Below, piece by piece: positions 27,168 to 57,688 of a stretch of DNA of 64,000 nt; position 1 is the first letter of the stretch; every line of letters starts with the position of its first letter. Under the pieces are notes generated by a model. The model saw only the letters and a list, made by a program, of their open reading frames with translations, was not told the DNA's origin and did not search any database. Origin of the DNA: Bacteriovoracaceae bacterium. Its GTDB lineage: Bacteria; Bdellovibrionota; Bacteriovoracia; Bacteriovoracales; Bacteriovoracaceae. The position numbers were made by a program, and so were the translations under genes. Where the stretch lies: contig CANFHC010000006.1 of the NCBI GenBank assembly GCA_947446575.1, positions 1 through 64,000 of the forward strand, given 5' to 3'.

Positions 27168-29108
27168 ATGTTTAAACAAATATTTTTAATTCTCTCTTTA
27201 ACACTATTTCAAAATATCGCCTTAGCTGATTTGAGTTCAGAAAGTAATGATCAAAGCCCCCGTTTTGCTATCCATCTACTAGATTATTTGGCCCACGATT
27301 ATGGTGGAGCAGTTGAGCATGGAAAAGTTGTCTCACCATCTGAGTATTCTGAGCAACAAGAATTTGCCTTAAAAATTTATGAATTAGGTGAAACACTTCC
27401 TGAGATAAAATCTAACCAAAAAATTCTTGAGAAAATTGTAAAACTAAAAAAGATGATCGATAACAAAGCTGAAGCTATCGATGTCGCAGTCTTTGCTCGT
27501 GATATTCAAAAAGAATTAATCAGTATTGCCAACGTGGCCCTTGCTCCAACTGAATGGCCTTCACTGACAAACGGTCATAAGCTTTTTCAACAAAACTGCA
27601 TATCTTGTCATGGAATCCAAGGACGTGGCGACGGACCTGCAGGAGCAAAAATGGATCCACATCCGGCCAATTTTCACAAAGAAGAACGCATGAGTCAGAT
27701 CTCAGCATTTCACTCATATAATACAATTCGCCTAGGCGTCCCAGGCACTGGTATGGCATCATGGAACCAATTTACGGACAAAGAAGTTTGGGATCTTTCC
27801 TTTTATCTTATGTCTATTCGTCATGAAAAAACTGCAGCCTCAGCACTTGCTAAATCACTTTCAACTCCTACTAATATTACATTAGAAGAAGCTGCAGGAT
27901 TGTCTGATGCTGAACTAAAAGAGAAATTGATTGGAAAAGATGACAATGAAAAATTAATGGCGTTGGCCCTCCTTAGAAATAAAGACAATACTCCAAGCGG
28001 AGATCAATATATTGGTAAAGCTAAATCACTTCTAGATGACACTCTTGTCGCTTACAATAAAAAAACATCCGATTCAAAAAATGATGCTAAAAATTTAGCC
28101 CTAAGAGCTTATCTTGAAGGAATCGAGCCCATTGAGCCAATGATCAAAGCAAACGATCCAAAAATGGTGGTTGCCATTGAAACTCATATGGGAAAAATTC
28201 GACAAATTATTGCTGATCAAAATGGCACGAGTGAGTTACTTGCTGGACAAATTCATTTAACAAAAGAATTATTCAATAAAGTTGCTGAGACTATAGAAGC
28301 AAAAGAGTTAACTTTTGGAGTTGCTTTCTCAGGCGCCTTCGCCATTATTTTAAGAGAAGGTTTTGAAGCCGTTTTAATCGTACTTACTCTTTTAAGTGTC
28401 ATCAAAGCTTTTGGCAACACAAGGGCTGCCCTATGGGTTCATGCAGGGTGGAGCTCTGCTCTCTCGCTAGGTTTTATAACTTGGTTTTTATCGGGTTTCT
28501 TAATGAAGATGAGTGGAGCTAGCCGAGAAATGCTAGAAGCTGTCACTTCAACAGTGGCCGTCTTTATTCTTCTTTATTTTGGTTTTTGGTTACATCGTCA
28601 AACTGAAATATCTCGCTGGAAAAAATTTATTCAAGAAAAAGTTCAAGGAGCTATTGATAATAAAAATCTTTGGGCGCTTTTTTCGATTTCTTTTATCTCG
28701 GTTTTCCGTGAAGCATTTGAAACAGTTCTTTTTATACGCGCGCTATGGTTTCAAACAAATGGAGAAGGTAAAAATGCAATTGGATTAGGTCTTGCTTCTG
28801 CACTTGGGCTTATTTTTACTTTTTCTTTTATAGCTCTTCGTTATTCTAAAAAAATACCAGTCCGTGAACTTTTTAAAGTCTCTGCAATTATGACTAGCCT
28901 ACTCGCCTTTATTCTTGCGGGTAAAGCTGTGCATTCGCTGCAAGAAGCAGGTGTCTTGAATTCAACGATGATATCTTGGAATATTCGCTTTGAAACCATT
29001 GGAGTATTTCCAACATGGCAAACGCTATGTGCGCAGCTCATTACATTTGCAATGGCCATAATGCTTTTAAATTTAAACACAAAAAAAGCAAGTGTAAAAA
29101 CTACTTAA
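27168..29108 (+). CDS. Cytochrome c-FTR1 iron permease fusion
   Basis: Envelope protein that joins a periplasmic c-type cytochrome to an iron permease. After the signal MFKQIFLILSLTLFQNIALA, CISCH (residues 144-148) binds haem c; a probable axial Met lies in GTGMASWNQF. From about residue 380 there are six to seven membrane helices with two REG/AxE motifs, REGFEAV (about 394) and REAFETV (about 514), which are the FTR1 iron ligands. The cytochrome could oxidise or accept electrons from ferrous iron before transport, as proposed for related fusions. The length of 646 aa fits this class. The 3' end overlaps the ABC1-like gene by 8 bp. Confidence 0.9.
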   Translation: MFKQIFLILSLTLFQNIALADLSSESNDQSPRFAIHLLDYLAHDYGGAVEHGKVVSPSEYSEQQEFALKIYELGETLPEIKSNQKILEKIVKLKKMIDNKAEAIDVAVFARDIQKELISIANVALAPTEWPSLTNGHKLFQQNCISCHGIQGRGDGPAGAKMDPHPANFHKEERMSQISAFHSYNTIRLGVPGTGMASWNQFTDKEVWDLSFYLMSIRHEKTAASALAKSLSTPTNITLEEAAGLSDAELKEKLIGKDDNEKLMALALLRNKDNTPSGDQYIGKAKSLLDDTLVAYNKKTSDSKNDAKNLALRAYLEGIEPIEPMIKANDPKMVVAIETHMGKIRQIIADQNGTSELLAGQIHLTKELFNKVAETIEAKELTFGVAFSGAFAIILREGFEAVLIVLTLLSVIKAFGNTRAALWVHAGWSSALSLGFITWFLSGFLMKMSGASREMLEAVTSTVAVFILLYFGFWLHRQTEISRWKKFIQEKVQGAIDNKNLWALFSISFISVFREAFETVLFIRALWFQTNGEGKNAIGLGLASALGLIFTFSFIALRYSKKIPVRELFKVSAIMTSLLAFILAGKAVHSLQEAGVLNSTMISWNIRFETIGVFPTWQTLCAQLITFAMAIMLLNLNTKKASVKTT

Positions 29109-31239
29109 AGAAATTCTTTATTAAGTTTTTACAAGAATTTTGTGCTTGAACCATGGCAAGTTTTATCAGATCCATTTTCGTTAATGGATAATCGTATTGG
29201 CGATCAGCAATAGAGTGAGCAAGATTTTTCACCGCGCTTTTCATCACGACATCTTTAAACATTTCTGTTTCGCCAATACTCTCCGGTAATTGCTTCAAAA
29301 GAAGTGAGCCGCGAGCAAAAGCTCCTAACTTATCTGAGACGAAATAATTCTTCTGCACACACCAAGCAACCCAGTCTTCAGGACCTTTATTAGGATTGAG
29401 TTTTAATTCTGCTTCGATATCTTTAATAAGTTTAGCCTTAATGTTGGGATCTTTTGATCCCATTGAGGCCATCAGTCCATCAGTAATTGTTTTTGGTGAT
29501 TTTAAATAAGCTCCAGCACCTACTAAAATAAAAGCTCGTTGATCTTCTCTTGAAAGAGTCGATGATAGACCAAAGTCATAAAGAAGAATTTTTATTTTAT
29601 TATCTTCTTCGACCATTACGACACGAAAATTTCCTTGATGAAGGTCAGCATTTAAAAAACCACTTCTAAAAAGCGCTTCTTCAAACCACATGCGAAGCAT
29701 CTCTTCAGCTACAACTTTTTTTGCTGCAGTATCAGTGAGTTCAGCAAACTTAACTCCACCTGTGACGAATTCTTGAATATGTAAATTTGATTTTCCATTA
29801 GGAGCAATAAACACATCTGGAACTTTCATTTCCAGCATACGGTATTTAGGATCTGCACTAATTTTAACTGCACGAGAATAAATTTCATTGGCCATTTTTT
29901 GGCGTTCAACTGCAATGCTTAAATCAACTTCGTCATCTAAAAACTTTTCAACACTATCAATAAGTGTAGACATGACTTTAACATCTTCAATACCTTCAGC
30001 TTTTAGAAGAGCTTCGTTTTCAGGAACAAATTTTCTCAAAATCATTATATCTTCTTTGCAGCGCTTAGCTACTCCAGGTTTTAAAAATCTAAGGGCCACC
30101 TCACGTTCTGTATTATCTTGAATAAGGATTGCCTTATTAACTTGAGCGATTGTTCCAGTTCCTAGTGGTTTTTCAGAGAGCGATTTAATCTCATAACCAC
30201 CTTTATCTTTAGCAATAATTTCTCTTACTAAATGAGCAGGTACTTGTTTACCATTAGATTCTAAAATCTCCATGAGCTTAGAAAAACTCTCCCCAACTCC
30301 TTTTTCCTTTCCTATTTGTTGCAATACTTTTCCAAGCCCTGGCCCTGTATTTTGAAACACAACATTTAAAACTCCTTCTGCTGTCAATTTAGGTCCAGCC
30401 GTAACGAGCTCAGACATGATAGTTTTAATCACGTCTGTTGGTAATTGATTAAAATAATAATCCATAAATCTTACAACTAATCGAATTTGAGTATTTTTCA
30501 AATCGACTTGACCAGACTTCGCGATCTCAGATCCAATATTACGAATGGCCATCTCGTGCTTTTTTAATTTAGATTCGACCAAGGTTACGACCTTAAGAAT
30601 TTTTTCATTATCACTTCCTTGAAAATCGACAATGGCATCGAGTTCTTGAAAACTAGGATGTAAATTCAGCTCTGCTCCTAACAACTTCGCAGCGACAACA
30701 TCGTACTTTGCGCCCATGGCAGCTTTTGATTCAGCTGTCATATTTTTATAAAAAGGAGTCACGATTTTCATCCCTTCTATTAAATCAATTGAAACTTTTG
30801 GTTTAGGAAGATTTTCAACTTGTCTGTTTAAAAAGTTAAGCTCATCTTTAAGTGTCCAGATTGGCGCTTTTTTAATGGCAACAAATTCTTTGCCACCTTT
30901 TTTTTCCGTACGAATATTCTCTAAAAGTACTGGATAAATTTTATTAAAATATGCAGTGGCATCATTATAAATTTTTATTTTATAAGCATCATCAGAATGA
31001 GTGGCCTCAAGTAGATATTTGACTAAATTTTCTTGAACAGTTTTGATTTCGACTTTTCGCGCTTCACTTAGATCAGTCTCGTAATGGGATTTAAATTCTT
31101 CAATGACTAGATCAATTTGGGAATTGGCAATTGACCTGGTGGTTTCCTCTCTGCGAGAGTCTACATAAGTAGAGCAAGAAGAAGTAATAAGAGCACTTAG
31201 TAGTGCAGCCGATAATACAAAATGATTTAGTGTTTTCAT
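29101..31239 (-). CDS. ABC1/UbiB kinase-like lipoprotein
   Basis: Atypical kinase fold of the ABC1 (UbiB/AarF) family, here with a lipoprotein signal (MKTLNHFVLSAALLSALITS, lipobox SSC at Cys22). Recognisable segments: GPGLGKVLQQ near 299 (cf. the KxGQ motif), PLGTGTIAQV at 358-367 (cf. the Ala-rich loop of UbiB), VALRFLKPG at 381-389 where the usual catalytic Lys is Arg, NADLHQGNF at 530-538 (catalytic loop, Asp532 and Asn537) and YDFGLS at 554-559 (metal Asp555). It is therefore near-complete for the kinase fold but altered at the Lys. UbiB homologues act in ubiquinone synthesis; an exported lipoprotein form is odd because ATP is absent outside. It follows the 31255 gene by 15 bp, downstream of an LpoB/LPP20 cluster. 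Confidence 0.86.
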   Translation of the reverse strand: MKTLNHFVLSAALLSALITSSCSTYVDSRREETTRSIANSQIDLVIEEFKSHYETDLSEARKVEIKTVQENLVKYLLEATHSDDAYKIKIYNDATAYFNKIYPVLLENIRTEKKGGKEFVAIKKAPIWTLKDELNFLNRQVENLPKPKVSIDLIEGMKIVTPFYKNMTAESKAAMGAKYDVVAAKLLGAELNLHPSFQELDAIVDFQGSDNEKILKVVTLVESKLKKHEMAIRNIGSEIAKSGQVDLKNTQIRLVVRFMDYYFNQLPTDVIKTIMSELVTAGPKLTAEGVLNVVFQNTGPGLGKVLQQIGKEKGVGESFSKLMEILESNGKQVPAHLVREIIAKDKGGYEIKSLSEKPLGTGTIAQVNKAILIQDNTEREVALRFLKPGVAKRCKEDIMILRKFVPENEALLKAEGIEDVKVMSTLIDSVEKFLDDEVDLSIAVERQKMANEIYSRAVKISADPKYRMLEMKVPDVFIAPNGKSNLHIQEFVTGGVKFAELTDTAAKKVVAEEMLRMWFEEALFRSGFLNADLHQGNFRVVMVEEDNKIKILLYDFGLSSTLSREDQRAFILVGAGAYLKSPKTITDGLMASMGSKDPNIKAKLIKDIEAELKLNPNKGPEDWVAWCVQKNYFVSDKLGAFARGSLLLKQLPESIGETEMFKDVVMKSAVKNLAHSIADRQYDYPLTKMDLIKLAMVQAQNSCKNLIKNFFK

Positions 31240-31246
31240 TGAAGAC

Positions 31247-31254
31247 TTATCGGA
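31247..31254 (-). promoter_or_regulatory. FliA-like -10 element before the ABC1-like gene
   Basis: TCCGATAA on the reverse strand lies exactly 7 nt before the start codon at 31239, in a 15-bp intergenic gap. It matches seven of the eight bases of the FliA (sigma-28) -10 box GCCGATAA. The expected -35 position reads TTAATATG, a poor match to TAAAGTTT. It would give a leaderless transcript, and the gene has only a weak Shine-Dalgarno. Confidence 0.4.
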
Positions 31255-32817
31255 CTAATTCTTTCTCATATTAACAAGTATTGGGCTGTCTGATGCAATT
31301 ATTTCCACATCGCCAAGACTGACTTTTTCAGTTGGGCTTATTGATATTTCAAAGTGATAGAAGCCAGGAATTAGATTTAGGTCAATCAAACGAATTTCAT
31401 TGGGAAGTGTGGACCAGTAACGAGTGTCGGCCTTTTCAGATTCTTCAATAAATTTAGCAGCTCCAATATATTGGATAACCGCTGCATTTTTAGCCAAAAA
31501 ATTATTCTCACCTTTCCTTCCACCACCTAACGCTTTATAGGTTGCGTATGAAGCCGCTATGGCCGTAGCGTGTTTAGCCGCTAATCTAAAACCAACTCGT
31601 GTATACGTCCAAGCGGAGCTTTCATAGACCGCTTCTTCTGCGATATCACCCATTGGGTTAACAAGTGGTACATTTTTTCTCAAAACTTCTTTATTATTTT
31701 TATCAAAAACAACTAGAATCTGCTCTTGCGGATGATTGGTATTTACTATTTTTGGAAGTTCAAAACCTACACCTACAAATTTGAGAGCAGCACTGGCCAC
31801 TCCAATTCCTAAAAAAGCTCCACCTGGATTATATGAATTAGGCGTTGGCATTAATCCTAAAACATCAGCAACGAATAAAGCAACCAAAGGCTCTTTTGAT
31901 AAAAATTCCAAATTATAAAAACTTTTATCCGCAACCTTTTCAGCGATTATTCCTTTTTCCAAAATAAGGGTTACTGGAGTTTTGATATCTTTAAGTAATT
32001 TTTTGGATTCTTTTTTTGATAAGCGTTCAATATTATCAGTTAAATATTCTTGAATATTTTTTTGTAAGTCTGATTCAACAATATATTTTTTTTTCACTTC
32101 TGTAGTTGTTAGATTTGCCAGTTTGCTGAAGTCTTCTTTGAATGTCTTATAATTAAGATTAAAAGTTGGATATGTATTGTAGTTTTTAAAGAGAACATCT
32201 CTCGCGTCTTTATAGAGTTGAAGAGCAATTTGACGGTCTTCTCTGGTCTCAATCATTTCGTGAATTTTAGCTCCGTAAATTTTCAAGAGTAGATCATTCT
32301 TATAAACACTTTTACCCAAGCGCTCTTCTTTGATCGTAGCTAAAAAACTATCCCACGCAAGGACTTCAGCTCGAGCGCGAAAAAGATCCTCGCGGCTTTT
32401 AGTTTTTTGGTAAGATAAGATTGCATTTAGAGAAAGATAAAAATGCAACATCGAGCGCTCATAGATTTCCCCATAGAACACATCGAAATTATCATTGAGT
32501 AGAGTTTTTTCAGCTTTTTTTGAAGCACTTACCGTATAGAGCTGATCTGAAAGATTTCTGGCTTCATCAAGGGCCTTTGATGAGTTTTCTAAATCACCTT
32601 TGGCATGAAGAAGCATTCCTTTTTCCATCAAAGCTAAAAGCCTTTCATCTTTATCCATATAAAATTTAGATTTCTCTAAAAATTGCAATCCTTGATCGTA
32701 AGATCTGGTTTGATAGAAAGTTAATAATTCCTTCCGATCCTCCCGGCCACCGCTAGAGCAGCCTTGGAGAATGAAAGAAAGTGCTATAAGAAAAAAGAAT
32801 GCTTTTAGGTTATTCAC
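31255..32817 (-). CDS. TPR-like envelope lipoprotein (COG3014-like)
   Basis: Secreted 520-aa lipoprotein with signal NNLKAFFFLIALSFILQGC (lipobox LQGC). It has helical repeats in the N-terminal half (YDQGLQFLEK, ALMEKGMLLHAKGD) with TPR character, followed by the conserved YERSMLHFYLSLNA block and a C-terminal beta-rich half. From memory the pattern resembles COG3014, found near LpoB-type lipoproteins in other Gram-negatives. I start at GTG 32817 so that it does not overlap lpoB-like, 8 bp upstream; TTG 32832 is possible. Its role is unknown. It is the fourth gene of the minus-strand cluster beginning at 35145. Confidence 0.78.
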   Translation of the reverse strand: MNNLKAFFFLIALSFILQGCSSGGREDRKELLTFYQTRSYDQGLQFLEKSKFYMDKDERLLALMEKGMLLHAKGDLENSSKALDEARNLSDQLYTVSASKKAEKTLLNDNFDVFYGEIYERSMLHFYLSLNAILSYQKTKSREDLFRARAEVLAWDSFLATIKEERLGKSVYKNDLLLKIYGAKIHEMIETREDRQIALQLYKDARDVLFKNYNTYPTFNLNYKTFKEDFSKLANLTTTEVKKKYIVESDLQKNIQEYLTDNIERLSKKESKKLLKDIKTPVTLILEKGIIAEKVADKSFYNLEFLSKEPLVALFVADVLGLMPTPNSYNPGGAFLGIGVASAALKFVGVGFELPKIVNTNHPQEQILVVFDKNNKEVLRKNVPLVNPMGDIAEEAVYESSAWTYTRVGFRLAAKHATAIAASYATYKALGGGRKGENNFLAKNAAVIQYIGAAKFIEESEKADTRYWSTLPNEIRLIDLNLIPGFYHFEISISPTEKVSLGDVEIIASDSPILVNMRKN

Positions 32818-32825
32818 TAAAATGA

Positions 32826-33431
32826 CTACCAACCCATACTTTTCTTTTCAGAAAATTTAGAAAGCTTCGCTCTACTTCTGAAGATCTCTAAACCAGATTG
32901 AATATCAGTAATGCGAAGATTGATAGAGTATTGTTTAATTGTTTTTCCATCACGACTTTCTGGTTTCATATAAACGTTACCAAAAATAATCAGGTCAGCA
33001 CCCGTTTGTTTCCCAACTTTCTTAGCCGTCTTAGGATCAACCATCCCATCATTTTGATATGTGATTTCTTTTAACAAGGCTCCACGAGATTCAGCGTCAA
33101 CTAATGTGAAATCTCCTTGCTTTGAAATTTCATTTAATAATTCATCGTTAATGTCGTTGATTGGAAAGTAAGCTTCAGCTGTTAAGTTTTGCACTTCACC
33201 AACAAAAATTTTTAATTGTTTTCCGTGCTCCATCATATAACGGCGAAGTCCCTTATGCTCACTCATCTCTTTCATGGCATCGCGGATTACTTGTTCTGTA
33301 TCAGCTTGTACCCACTGATCCGTAATAGTAAGTGCTTTTTCATCAGAAGTTTTATTGTCCACTCGTTGTGCTTTAAAAGATCCGCAGCTTGCTAAACTAA
33401 GTAGGACCATCAACATTGCTAAATGTTTCAT
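32826..33431 (-). CDS. LpoB-like outer-membrane lipoprotein
   Basis: Lipoprotein (signal KHLAMLMVLLSLASCG, lipobox LASC) with the LpoB / penicillin-binding-protein-activator fold: LKIFVGEVQNLT strand, NDINDELLNEISKQGDFTLVD, VGKQTGADLIIFGNVYMK and YSINLRITDIQSGLEIF. In enterobacteria LpoB activates PBP1b for peptidoglycan synthesis; here the activated synthase is unknown. ATG 33431 is chosen because GGAG lies upstream and the signal begins there (the ORF from 33452 adds FTEKQK). It is part of a five-gene cluster with two LPP20-like proteins upstream and a TPR-like lipoprotein downstream. Confidence 0.85.
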   Translation of the reverse strand: MKHLAMLMVLLSLASCGSFKAQRVDNKTSDEKALTITDQWVQADTEQVIRDAMKEMSEHKGLRRYMMEHGKQLKIFVGEVQNLTAEAYFPINDINDELLNEISKQGDFTLVDAESRGALLKEITYQNDGMVDPKTAKKVGKQTGADLIIFGNVYMKPESRDGKTIKQYSINLRITDIQSGLEIFRSRAKLSKFSEKKSMGW

Positions 33432-33462
33432 TTTTTGTTTCTCCGTAAACAATTTGTATTAA

Positions 33463-34161
33463 TTAAATTTCACCTTTTCTTGCTTTAATAAAGTTTTCAG
33501 AAACATTTTGAAGAGCTTTTTTTACATTTTCTTTTGCTTCTGGATCATCTACCTGCTTCACTACGAAACTTGCGGCCTCATCTACTGATTTTTTTAAACG
33601 CTCTCCTTCCATACGAATTAGAACTGAGCAAGTGTACGCTTTAAAATCTTCTTTTGCGCCCATGCTCTTTTTGTATTCTCTTTGCTCCCAATAAGTTTTT
33701 ACAACTGCAGCTCCGTGAACCATTGACTGGATTTTTTCAGCCAGAGTATTTTCCATATATTCTTTCAAGGGTGAAAGCTTAGGATTGTTTAAATCAACTG
33801 AAGCATTTCCTTCTTGAGTTGTTCCCAACGTTTTTTCAATATAAGTTGTGATTTCGCCGGCGATATCTACGCGAGCATTAGCTTTAGCGATGTCACAAGC
33901 AGCTCCGCGAGTCACTTTTGGTTCAGACTCATAAGAGAAGAATCTGTTTTTATCAGTGTCTTTTTCATTTTGTTTTGCCCAAACTTCTGCGTCTTCAATC
34001 CATCCCGGACGAAAGTTGGAACTAGCATCGCGCACTTCGTATTCTTTTTTAATTTCTGTGTGCTTAACATCTTCAACTGGACGTTCAACGACCGCTGCTT
34101 TTTTTGCACTAGAGCAAGCCACTAGAGTTAAGAGAAAGACACTTGTTAGAATTTTTTTCAT
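33463..34161 (-). CDS. LPP20-like lipoprotein
   Basis: A 232-aa lipoprotein (KKILTSVFLLTLVAC, lipobox LVAC). The core GWIEDAEVW followed by AAC(D)IAKANARVDIAGEIT is the recurring pattern of the LPP20 family (Trp, then an Ala-rich helix that starts an alpha/beta unit). The C-terminus is a long charged helix. LPP20-type proteins are envelope proteins in Helicobacter and flagellar-outer-membrane proteins (FlgP, FlgO/T) in Vibrio; the function here is unknown. GGAG precedes the start. It is between an exported LPP20-like protein and the LpoB-like gene (31-bp gap). Confidence 0.78.
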   Translation of the reverse strand: MKKILTSVFLLTLVACSSAKKAAVVERPVEDVKHTEIKKEYEVRDASSNFRPGWIEDAEVWAKQNEKDTDKNRFFSYESEPKVTRGAACDIAKANARVDIAGEITTYIEKTLGTTQEGNASVDLNNPKLSPLKEYMENTLAEKIQSMVHGAAVVKTYWEQREYKKSMGAKEDFKAYTCSVLIRMEGERLKKSVDEAASFVVKQVDDPEAKENVKKALQNVSENFIKARKGEI

Positions 34162-34182
34162 CGTACATCTCCTGTTTATTTA

Positions 34183-35145
34183 TCAATCTTCCATTTTTAT
34201 GGTTGTTAACTGGTCCATGGTTTCTTGGAAGGACTCTTTAATTTCTGGTGCTGCTTTTTCAATGGCCTGTTCTGCGTTTCTTGCTACTTGTTCACTAAGA
34301 GCAGACATCTTTCCCATTACGGTATTGTCGCTATTAAGCAACTCTAGTCTTAAGGTTACATTCAATTTTTTAAAACCTTCCACATTGAAGTATTCTTCTT
34401 CTGTCTGAAGTTCAGAGCGAAGCGTATATTTCGGAAGATTTTTTTTAGCAACGATCACAATCTTTAAAGGGGATAATGTATCGATCAAGGTATGCGATAA
34501 TTTAGTAGGAAGTTTTCTTCCTTTGGTTTGCATGGCCATTTTTAGCGGCTTCAGTTTATTGATTTTTCCCAACACTAGATCTTTTTTTATTTTAAGTATA
34601 AGTGGAGCGTCAGAAACAAGAGAGTAGCGCTCACCGTAGGCTTCAATTAAAGTTAAATTTTTTAAAATTTTCGGGAATGTAAAACGAGAATTAAGTTCGA
34701 ATGCTTTAGCATTGACGTTATCGAGTTCATCAATTTTATCTTTTAGAAGTTTTGCAGTTTTTTTGCGGTCTAAAGTCATTAAGACATAAGTATGACTTCC
34801 TATTTCTTCTTGCTTTTTAATTTCTAGACCAGAAATCAGTTCACTTGTTTCTTCACTTACTGTTTTATTGGTCCATTCATTAAAGGTTCCACTTGCAGCG
34901 CTGGCTCCTAATTGCTCTGAGGAAGTTGAGATAAGGGATTTTGATTTAACTCTTGTTTGAAAAAATTTTGCCACTTCACTTCGAGCTTCGGCCAATGCAT
35001 CGGCGAGGGTCTCCCCATCACCAACGGCACATAAAAATTCTCGCTCACAACCAGGATTAGCTTTCACATAATCCGAAAACCATTCTGGGCCAGCGGCATA
35101 AACTCCCATTGGGAGAAGACACGAAAATATGAGTAAAAATTTCAT
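34183..35145 (-). CDS. Exported LPP20-like protein
   Basis: Sec-exported 320-aa protein (MKFLLIFSCLLPMGVYA signal). Mature GPEWFSDYVKAN and AVGDGETLADALAEARSEVAKFF match the LPP20 domain (Trp followed by the AxxxAR helix). Unlike its neighbour it has no lipobox. I start at ATG 35145, where the signal is shortest and normal; a GTG at 35178 is possible. It is first in the minus-strand envelope cluster and shares a TATAAT -10 candidate at 35252-35257 that leaves a long 5' UTR of about 100 nt. Two LPP20 paralogues in tandem suggest a heteromeric complex. Confidence 0.75.
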   Translation of the reverse strand: MKFLLIFSCLLPMGVYAAGPEWFSDYVKANPGCEREFLCAVGDGETLADALAEARSEVAKFFQTRVKSKSLISTSSEQLGASAASGTFNEWTNKTVSEETSELISGLEIKKQEEIGSHTYVLMTLDRKKTAKLLKDKIDELDNVNAKAFELNSRFTFPKILKNLTLIEAYGERYSLVSDAPLILKIKKDLVLGKINKLKPLKMAMQTKGRKLPTKLSHTLIDTLSPLKIVIVAKKNLPKYTLRSELQTEEEYFNVEGFKKLNVTLRLELLNSDNTVMGKMSALSEQVARNAEQAIEKAAPEIKESFQETMDQLTTIKMED

Positions 35146-35306: not shown

Positions 35307-36227
35307 ATGAAAAAAGTCATCTTCGCATCGTTAATGGTAGCCGCTACTACGGTAAACGCTTCAGACATCATGCTCTCAAAAACAATTAAACCAGACTTAA
35401 GATCAAAAATAGAACGTGACTTAAATTTAATTGAGGCTTTTAAGTTCAAAAGTGATGCTAATCCAGAAACTCTAAAAGTTATGGGTTTATCAAGCTTAAA
35501 CGCACAAACAGTGACAGAATGGTTGAATGCCAGAGTTAATTATATTATTTCAGAAAATGCTCTTTCTTTTTTTAACTTGCTCATAAAGCGTGTCGTATTT
35601 GTTGAAACAAAAAATGTAGATTTTCCTAATTCTAAAATTATCCCCTACTCAATGGACAAACAAATCGTTCAAAATGGATTAAATGCTGAAGGCGGCTTCA
35701 CTGTCATGTCGAATATCGGGTCAGCACTTTACCTAGCTGGTAAACAACAGAGCCAAGTCTATGGAATGAAGGTGTCTCGAGGATTCTTACATAAATCAGA
35801 AAAAGTTGCTGTAACAAGTCCGCGTGCTGGAATCATTCAAATCGGAGAAGGATTGTTTGCTCAAGAATTAACTGTGAACAAAGAAAATCCAGATGCTCTT
35901 GCAAATTCTATTTTTAGATTGGGGACATTTTTTCACGAAGCTCGCCATAGCGATGGAAATGGGAAGAGCTTAAGCTTCATGCATACCAACTGCCCAGAAG
36001 GCCATGACTACGCAGGAATGCCAGCTTGTGATGAAAACCTTAATGGTCCATATACTATTGGAACTCTAATGATGGCCGAAATGGCAAAAGCTTGTGATGA
36101 AGACTGTTCCGAAAAAGATAAGGAGACTCTTAAGATGTTGGTCTTAGATAGCGCCAGCAGAATTATGAAGATGACCCATAAAGGTGAGAAAGCAACTGCT
36201 TGGGATGCATCACCAGAAAGCCTTTAA
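35307..36227 (+). CDS. Exported HEARH-motif putative metallopeptidase
   Basis: Secreted 306-aa protein (KKVIFASLMVAATTVNA signal). A canonical zinc-peptidase signature HEARH (HExxH) sits at residues 210-214 in the context LGTFFHEARHSDGNGK. After it comes a Cys-rich segment (CPEGHDYAGMPACD, CDEDC) whose residues could make disulphides or bind metal. No known family is recognised, so the zincin class is unassigned. It would act in the periplasm or outside the cell on peptide bonds. It has its own transcript on the plus strand, divergent from the LPP20 cluster, and is followed by a good terminator. Confidence 0.8.
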   Translation: MKKVIFASLMVAATTVNASDIMLSKTIKPDLRSKIERDLNLIEAFKFKSDANPETLKVMGLSSLNAQTVTEWLNARVNYIISENALSFFNLLIKRVVFVETKNVDFPNSKIIPYSMDKQIVQNGLNAEGGFTVMSNIGSALYLAGKQQSQVYGMKVSRGFLHKSEKVAVTSPRAGIIQIGEGLFAQELTVNKENPDALANSIFRLGTFFHEARHSDGNGKSLSFMHTNCPEGHDYAGMPACDENLNGPYTIGTLMMAEMAKACDEDCSEKDKETLKMLVLDSASRIMKMTHKGEKATAWDASPESL

Positions 36228-56845: not shown

Positions 56846-57688
56846 TCAGATGTCTATAAAAGAGGTCATTAGTTGAAGACATGTTGCACTGGATTTTTGT
56901 TTGGATAAACGACGTGATTGTTCATACATTTTATTTGAATAATCATTCCATTGATTGCTTGCTAAGTTGAGTTGCGTCTTTTCGATTTGTATGGCCTCAC
57001 TTAAATTTATGCCCTGTTCCTCACTTTCTCTTAGTGCTGAGTTCACGGCTCCATGAATAATGGATAATTTATATTTGGCAAAACTCCATTCATCAATTGA
57101 ACGAGGGACATACTCACCTACGGCTTCTGTTGAAGCTTGAAAAGTTTTGAAATACTCATAAGTTTTTCCTAAACCTATGACATGTTCATTTTGACTATTA
57201 TTTAAAGTAAAATTTTCTGTATCATCAATCATTATTAATTCGCTTAAGTCTTTTGATATTTTTGTAAGGTCTTTTTTAAAGCGCACTGAAAATTTATCTG
57301 TAGCCAATGCTCCCGGAGAAGTTGTTAAGTCCTCGCGGTTGAGTATTTTAAATGCTATCTCCTCTAGACTTCTTCCATCACTTAGTTTTATTTTTTGCAA
57401 TAAAACATGATTGCGCTCTTTGCTTCCTCCACTAAAAAAAGAAATTTTGGTATATTTTCTGCTCAGCAAATCTTCAACAAATTCTTCTACACCATTCATG
57501 ATAAAATATTTTTTCCCCTCTACTGATATAATTCGTGGGCCTTGCATGTCAGTCTTAACTTCTGAGGTAAGAGTCCAATCAATATCAAAAACAATATGCC
57601 TTATTTTATTAGACGACGCTGGATTTCGTGCCAAATCAGCGCAAGAGGTTATTAAGACTAAAAATAGTAAAAGGAGAATCCTATTCAT
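56846..57688 (-). CDS. HAD-fold lipoprotein phosphatase
   Basis: 280-aa lipoprotein (NRILLLLFLVLITSC, lipobox ITSC) with a HAD phosphatase core: DIDWTLT (residues 35-41, D-x-D-x-T), SFFSGGSKE (motif II), and LIMIDDTENF (motif IV). The DxDxT shape is typical of the FCP/NIF and acid phosphatase branches. It is exported, so a periplasmic phosphatase is likely. A GCCGATAG element lies 7 nt upstream of the ATG. It is not a known named family to me. Confidence 0.8.
   Translation of the reverse strand: MNRILLLLFLVLITSCADLARNPASSNKIRHIVFDIDWTLTSEVKTDMQGPRIISVEGKKYFIMNGVEEFVEDLLSRKYTKISFFSGGSKERNHVLLQKIKLSDGRSLEEIAFKILNREDLTTSPGALATDKFSVRFKKDLTKISKDLSELIMIDDTENFTLNNSQNEHVIGLGKTYEYFKTFQASTEAVGEYVPRSIDEWSFAKYKLSIIHGAVNSALRESEEQGINLSEAIQIEKTQLNLASNQWNDYSNKMYEQSRRLSKQKSSATCLQLMTSFIDI

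Follow-up and report, generated by a model that had tools for sequence, protein, structure and literature searches.

UbiB is known as the 'kinase' of the quinone pathway. UbiB proteins are suspected of extracting quinones and lipids from membranes or placing them there (PMC8346625), and in COQ8A (ADCK3), a member of the UbiB/COQ8/ABC1 family (PF03109), the KxGQ and ExD motifs fold into the active site, the catalytic Asp488 is bridged to Arg611, and an A339G change in the Ala-rich loop makes autophosphorylation possible (PMC4718504). The beta-3 lysine, according to a review, is the sole residue that is absent from no known protein-kinase-like family (PMC4718504). MYXO-CTERM/myxosortase and other C-terminal tags are described systems of a different sort, in which a short motif with a conserved cysteine is found on unrelated exported proteins (PMC11980579), as is the cysteine tail reported here.

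We analyzed a 64,000-nucleotide stretch of DNA (hereafter the window; positions 1 to 64,000 of contig CANFHC010000006.1, forward strand) from a Bacteriovoracaceae bacterium (assembly GCA_947446575.1). Five minus-strand open reading frames separated by short gaps lie at 29101-35145, as the first-pass annotation had described. The export signals it had claimed were also found, with a plain Sec signal on the first gene product (ATG at 35145, ...MGVYAAGPEW) and a lipobox on each of the remaining four (LVAC, LASC, LQGC, and, on the 712-aa protein, a weaker ITSSC):

34183..35145, minus strand: LPP20 protein P0005 with Sec signal, in a separable four-gene block (Pfam LPP20, 4.3e-7)
33463..34161, minus strand: lipoprotein P0004 of no known family, in the separable four-gene block (no Pfam match)
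32826..33431, minus strand: LpoB-like lipoprotein P0003, in the separable four-gene block (Pfam LpoB, 3.6e-22)
31255..32817, minus strand: TPR-like lipoprotein, probable GTG start at 32817, in the separable four-gene block (neighbourhood comparison)
29101..31239, minus strand: ABC1/UbiB-like lipoprotein P0001, 712 aa, predicted to be exported (Pfam ABC1, AF2, Foldseek)

The LpoB-like label of the third gene agrees with the Pfam LpoB profile (PF13036; 3.6e-22, above cut-off); P0003 falls below the NCBIfam equivalog cut-off for LpoB (TIGR02722, PBP1b activator; 79.9 bits vs. 110.55). The LPP20-like label, which had been given to both of the first two genes, holds for P0005 (PF02169; 4.3e-7, 30.7 bits, cut-off 25.9) but not for P0004, which matched neither PF02169 nor any other Pfam family and reached an hhalign probability of 0.35, i.e., no match, against the P0005 family profile. 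The TPR-like gene product had no firm match in Pfam or NCBIfam.

Comparison of the 712-aa protein with the ABC1 profile (PF03109) gave a match spanning residues 352-571 (E 1.2e-22, 80.6 bits, cut-off 22.9), in line with its earlier description as ABC1/UbiB-kinase-like. P0001 scores below the equivalog cut-off for UbiB proper (TIGR01982; 82.6 bits vs. 487.55), and the same genome encodes two further ABC1 proteins that both score better on the profile, one of them an ordinary UbiB-type protein of 575 aa. In a Foldseek search with the AF2 model of P0001 (AlphaFold, A2; pLDDT 87.2, pTM 0.83), the best matches were the COQ8A entries 7udq/5i35 (E 7e-11), followed by mycobacterial MSMEG_1954. By profile and predicted structure, P0001 is a genuine ABC1/UbiB-fold lipoprotein with the same fold as COQ8A (4ped, 5i35, 7udq), and it contains the following features:

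31174..31239, minus strand: signal peptide and lipobox ITSSC, predicted lipid-acceptor Cys22 (sequence, same-genus orthologs)
30370..31119, minus strand: N-terminal helical domain (residues 41-290), not part of the ABC1 domain (AF2 secondary structure)
29260..30372, minus strand: ABC1 kinase-like region, residues 290-660 (Pfam match 352-571, UbiB alignment)
30319..30330, minus strand: K304-V-L-Q307, counterpart of KxGQ (Lys and Gln unchanged throughout the 48 exported sequences)
30088..30090, minus strand: Arg384 at the beta-3 (VAIK) lysine position (alignment)
29629..29646, minus strand: catalytic loop D532...N537 (NADLHQGNF), invariant
29575..29577, minus strand: DFG Asp555, invariant
29104..29136, minus strand: cysteine tail SCKNLIKNFFK with Cys703 (Cys near the end in 48/48 exported sequences)

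The signal peptide and lipobox give P0001 a predicted place that differs from that of UbiB proper, which is cytoplasmic or at the inner membrane. Nearly all orthologs in the window's genus have a lipobox and retain its Cys, and nearly all of the phylum-wide relatives that were read begin with a hydrophobic leader; export and tail were called by simple rules rather than by a trained predictor. A phylum-wide profile search found an ABC1 match in a frame of at least 640 aa in about 68 of 369 genomes (hand count), including nearly all members of genus g65 of the Bdellovibrio-like family f6, which we take to be Bdellovibrio. On sequence evidence, P0001 is a member of a phylum-wide family of exported ABC1/UbiB-fold proteins, here called exo-ABC1. 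The earlier suggestion of a UbiB fold moved outside the cell, perhaps as a pseudokinase, gains support at the level of sequence, with an export signal on an ABC1 fold far beyond the genus and a key kinase residue lost. Among plasmid-borne relatives, the matches listed were only ordinary UbiB-type proteins with E of 1e-6 or weaker, and a contig scan outside the phylum with two peptide patterns, where sampling is thin, returned only Bacteriovorax-type contigs. A literature search found no paper on exported UbiB proteins.

In a tree of the kinase-like region (midpoint-rooted for drawing only), 15 cytoplasmic UbiB-type sequences fell on one side of a branch with support of 100/100, and a Lys-type exported clade was positioned between this cytoplasmic set and the remaining exported ABC1 sequences. 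In this second exported clade (L152, L155, L156, L157, L161, and L163) the beta-3 lysine is retained and the short tail is mostly missing; in L156 the cysteine is followed by a hydrophobic stretch. One genome (G020) carries two exported ABC1 genes (L041 and L042), and the product of one, at 857 aa, has a long additional N-terminal portion.

The kinase-like motifs listed in the first-pass annotation (PLGTGTIAQV, NADLHQGNF, and YDFG) are present in P0001. Across 48 aligned exported ABC1 sequences, which reach down to about 20% identity, the invariant residues are K304, Q307, Q366, W518, D532, G536, N537, D555, G557, R643, and C703. P0001 shares with the UbiB/COQ8/ABC1 family the Lys and Gln of KxGQ (which reads KVLQ, with the Gly replaced), the catalytic Asp and Asn, and the DFG Asp, and R643 probably matches COQ8A Arg611, an equivalence read from the alignment rather than from structural superposition. 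In contrast to that family, P0001 has Arg at the position of the beta-3 lysine (Arg in 40, Lys in seven, and Gly in one of the 48 exported sequences; Lys in the cytoplasmic UbiB-type sequences aligned) and GTGT in place of the Ala-rich loop, where the genome's own UbiB has GTAS. Exo-ABC1 further differs in its predicted export, its extra helical N-terminal domain, and its C-terminal cysteine tail, and it lacks a C-terminal transmembrane part. Since most of the active site is kept while the beta-3 lysine is replaced, the residue pattern points to a site under selection, though probably not for ordinary phosphotransfer.

The cysteine of the exo-ABC1 tail lies mostly 4–16 residues from the end, is the sole cysteine of the mature protein in most of the 48 exported sequences, and follows the pattern Cxx-hydrophobic-Phe/Tyr. 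L155, L156, and L157 depart from this distance; they belong to the Lys-type clade, where the cysteine is farther from the end or the tail is of another kind (L152, L155-L157, L161, and L163). Counts of the strict motif were 40/56 for exported ABC1 proteins and 35/46 for exported NIF-type phosphatases (see below), compared to 8/690 for other exported proteins, 15/997 for other non-exported proteins, and 0/18 for ABC1 proteins that are not exported. Only two of the 690 other exported proteins have it as a lone cysteine, one being an exported AAA+ ATPase and the other (L184) having the look of chance. The idea that exported proteins in general bear the tail was rejected in samples of the window's genome and of one Bdellovibrio-like genome. 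For L166 (Bdellovibrio type), the model shows disorder over the last 23 residues (pLDDT 32–54), which weakens the idea that the tail docks in the active site; the tail of P0001 is modeled as a helix (pLDDT 71–79), not disordered. Both Arg384 and Cys703 had been overlooked in the first-pass annotation.

Two other kinds of predicted exported protein carry the same kind of tail:

56846..57688, minus strand: NIF-type (HAD) phosphatase lipoprotein P0006, 280 aa, predicted to be exported, tail TCLQLMTSFIDI with Cys270 (Pfam NIF)
L148:9063-12080 (minus strand), L299:1411-4368, and L300:1369-3882: exported ClpA-like AAA+ ATPase with intact Walker A and Walker B motifs and a cysteine tail

P0006 fits the family of NIF/FCP1-type HAD phosphatases (PF03031; 5.2e-8, 33.2 bits, above the cut-off of 21.8) and retains the DxDWT motif; proteins of its type differ from that family in being exported lipoproteins or Sec substrates with a C-terminal cysteine tail. 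Its Cys270 is invariant in the A4 alignment, homologs are found in 70/369 genomes, and all 47 of those read have a cysteine 5–16 residues from the end. Whether a protein has a lipobox or a plain Sec signal is mostly concordant between ABC1 and NIF proteins within lineages, with mostly lipoboxes in the window's family and plain Sec signals in f6 for both. The two do not always occur together: G001, G007, and G010 have ABC1 only, and G009, G015, G018, and G022 have NIF only. The AAA+ protein (L148:9063-12080) has the ClpA-like AAA+ region of ClpA/ClpB ATPases, to which it adds an export signal and the tail, with Cys999 invariant in three divergent members. Its gene adjoins exo-ABC1 in G205, and the tails of the three known members resemble the ABC1 tails of the same genomes; across the phylum, the search for this family returned these three close members and otherwise partial AAA+ matches. 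Another exported protein encoded next to exo-ABC1 (L150:5543-6520, minus strand) ends in CSFYYK and is possibly HD-domain-like by eye, with no Pfam match.

The tail consensus tracks lineage rather than protein family (permutation p about 0.0005). The ABC1 and NIF tails read SCVELFKSFF and SCLELFTSF, respectively, in the window's genus; SCSSAIRKFF and NCLRAIQSF in g35; SCKSLF or QCRNLFL and MCGNLF or QCSQLFQ in g15; and RCEMVFQ or SCEGVFL and SCEKVFAF or ACGKIFAL in g65. Over the small set of seven genera that have both ABC1 and NIF proteins, the genus-matched tail score had a mean of 11.3 vs. 2.6 when permuted, with 1 of 5040 permutations as high; on a one-copy set the test gave 0.0006, and upstream control windows gave 0.04–0.58.

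Like MYXO-CTERM (PMC11980579), the cysteine tail is so far on record from one phylum, and by analogy it might function as such a tag does. It lies outside the MYXO-CTERM family, however: neither a transmembrane helix nor an Arg cluster comes after the Cys, only about 4–15 residues follow the Cys in most of the proteins (compare TIGR03901), and the NCBIfam CTERM models did not match the tailed proteins. Unlike MYXO-CTERM and the other tags, it was seen on few client families. Reading 800 kb of one Bdellovibrio-like genome brought up no other family with the tag; any general system of sorting would thus have few clients. A literature search returned no paper on a C-terminal cysteine tag in Bdellovibrio.

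The sequences themselves show the fold, the residue pattern, the signals for export, and the tail with its lineage matching; what we infer from them is the location, ligand, loss of phosphotransfer, and sorting role of exo-ABC1. The best explanation as a whole, to which we give an even chance, would be an exported, probably non-phosphorylating UbiB-like protein bearing a cysteine-tail signal that it shares with a NIF phosphatase and an AAA+ ATPase. Exo-ABC1 would cross the inner membrane via Sec, remaining a plain Sec substrate in the Bdellovibrio-like family; in the window's family it would be lipidated and thus probably anchored in the outer membrane. Since the fold retains the metal-binding Asp, Asn, and Asp as well as the KxGQ Lys and Gln of the UbiB cap, the site may still bind a ligand, probably a phosphate-bearing lipid or small molecule. 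The extracytoplasmic space (periplasm) holds no ATP pool, and given this and Arg at the beta-3 lysine position, exo-ABC1 has most likely lost phosphotransfer. To judge from COQ8 and Cqd1/Cqd2 as analogues (PMC8346625), its likeliest activity would be the handling of lipids or quinones. The tail would be a signal or docking motif that exo-ABC1 has in common with the NIF phosphatase and, within a few genera, with the AAA+ ATPase, and a common partner or enzyme would read it and bring or fix the tagged proteins at one extracytoplasmic site; our searches found no machinery or partner reading the tail. More tentatively, and as a possibility that we would not yet bet on, the phylum may employ a novel cysteine signal, a short C-terminus that lacks a membrane anchor and has an undescribed reader, to send or fix a few enzymes of normally cytoplasmic kinds (UbiB-like, NIF phosphatase, ClpA-like ATPase) outside the cell or in prey.

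These proteins make up a phylum-wide group that replaces the beta-3 lysine, keeps most of the remaining active site, and carries export signals. Since UbiB is suspected of quinone and lipid placement, an exported relative lets one ask what the fold does without ATP. That exo-ABC1 and an exported phosphatase have a tail in common suggests unrecognised sorting of enzymes outside the cytoplasm, and if the tail is a sorting signal, it would offer predatory bacteria a route to place enzymes at the surface or in prey.

The tagged proteins might instead leave the predator altogether, with exo-ABC1, the NIF phosphatase, and the AAA+ ATPase acting in the prey and their common tail serving as a second-step secretion signal. 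Known predators do occur among families related to the window's, and a tagged AAA+ protein with intact Walker A and B motifs would make little sense in an ATP-free periplasm, while ATP is at hand in prey. We nevertheless consider this reading, though a serious rival, unlikely: the lipobox in the window's family points to anchoring, Arg at the beta-3 lysine position speaks against the use of prey ATP by exo-ABC1, relatives are also found in families of unknown lifestyle, and the text of a Bdellovibrio proteomics study mentions no kinase or phosphatase (PMC12546842). The tail cysteine could also simply be where one shared partner docks or forms a disulfide, involving neither sorting nor covalent processing, as its position on a short motif and its being usually the single cysteine of the mature protein would allow. 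One co-evolving partner would likewise produce the lineage matching, but the same partner would have to serve three unrelated folds and was not found, and we regard this alternative as doubtful.

The first-pass annotation had proposed that P0001 works, perhaps as a pseudokinase, with an LpoB/LPP20 envelope-assembly complex. Its gene lies on the same strand as the TPR gene at a gap of 15 bp, the gene order is the same in G001, G002, G005, and G011, and block and ABC1 gene are together in these four and in G000, all of the same genus. A linkage survey of the five genes in relatives nonetheless revealed unlinked cases, which that annotation had named as grounds for giving up the proposal; the other ground it had named, a failure to match the ABC1 profile, did not arise. 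In G003, G006, G008, and G012 the locus is the same and has the ABC1 gene but none of the four; in G004 the block lies between FTR1 and an HExxH gene, with the ABC1 gene missing there; and in G007 block and ABC1 gene lie on separate contigs. The contig stops inside the block in G013, and G010 carries an interrupted ABC1 along with a relative of the second gene. The block is retained in other genera of the family, mostly without the ABC1 gene, and no general conserved neighbours of exported ABC1 genes, LpoB/LPP20 genes included, were found beyond the genus. Since block and ABC1 gene are each found without the other, the operon-like layout of the window joins two separately evolving units. The LpoB (PF13036) and LPP20 (PF02169) lipoproteins are neighbours of P0001 in the window, yet separable from the ABC1 gene; P0001 is not a fixed partner of these genes, and a role in such a complex appears very improbable.

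Two other genes flank the cluster. An exported protein with an HExxH-like motif (FHEARH; no Pfam match) is encoded at 35307-36227 on the plus strand, divergent from the block, and in most genomes of the genus its gene still neighbours the block or exo-ABC1. A fusion of cytochrome c and FTR1 iron permease is encoded at 27168-29108 on the plus strand; among the same-genus loci read, it is found here only where the four-gene block is present, and it is absent from this place in G003, G006, G008, and G012.
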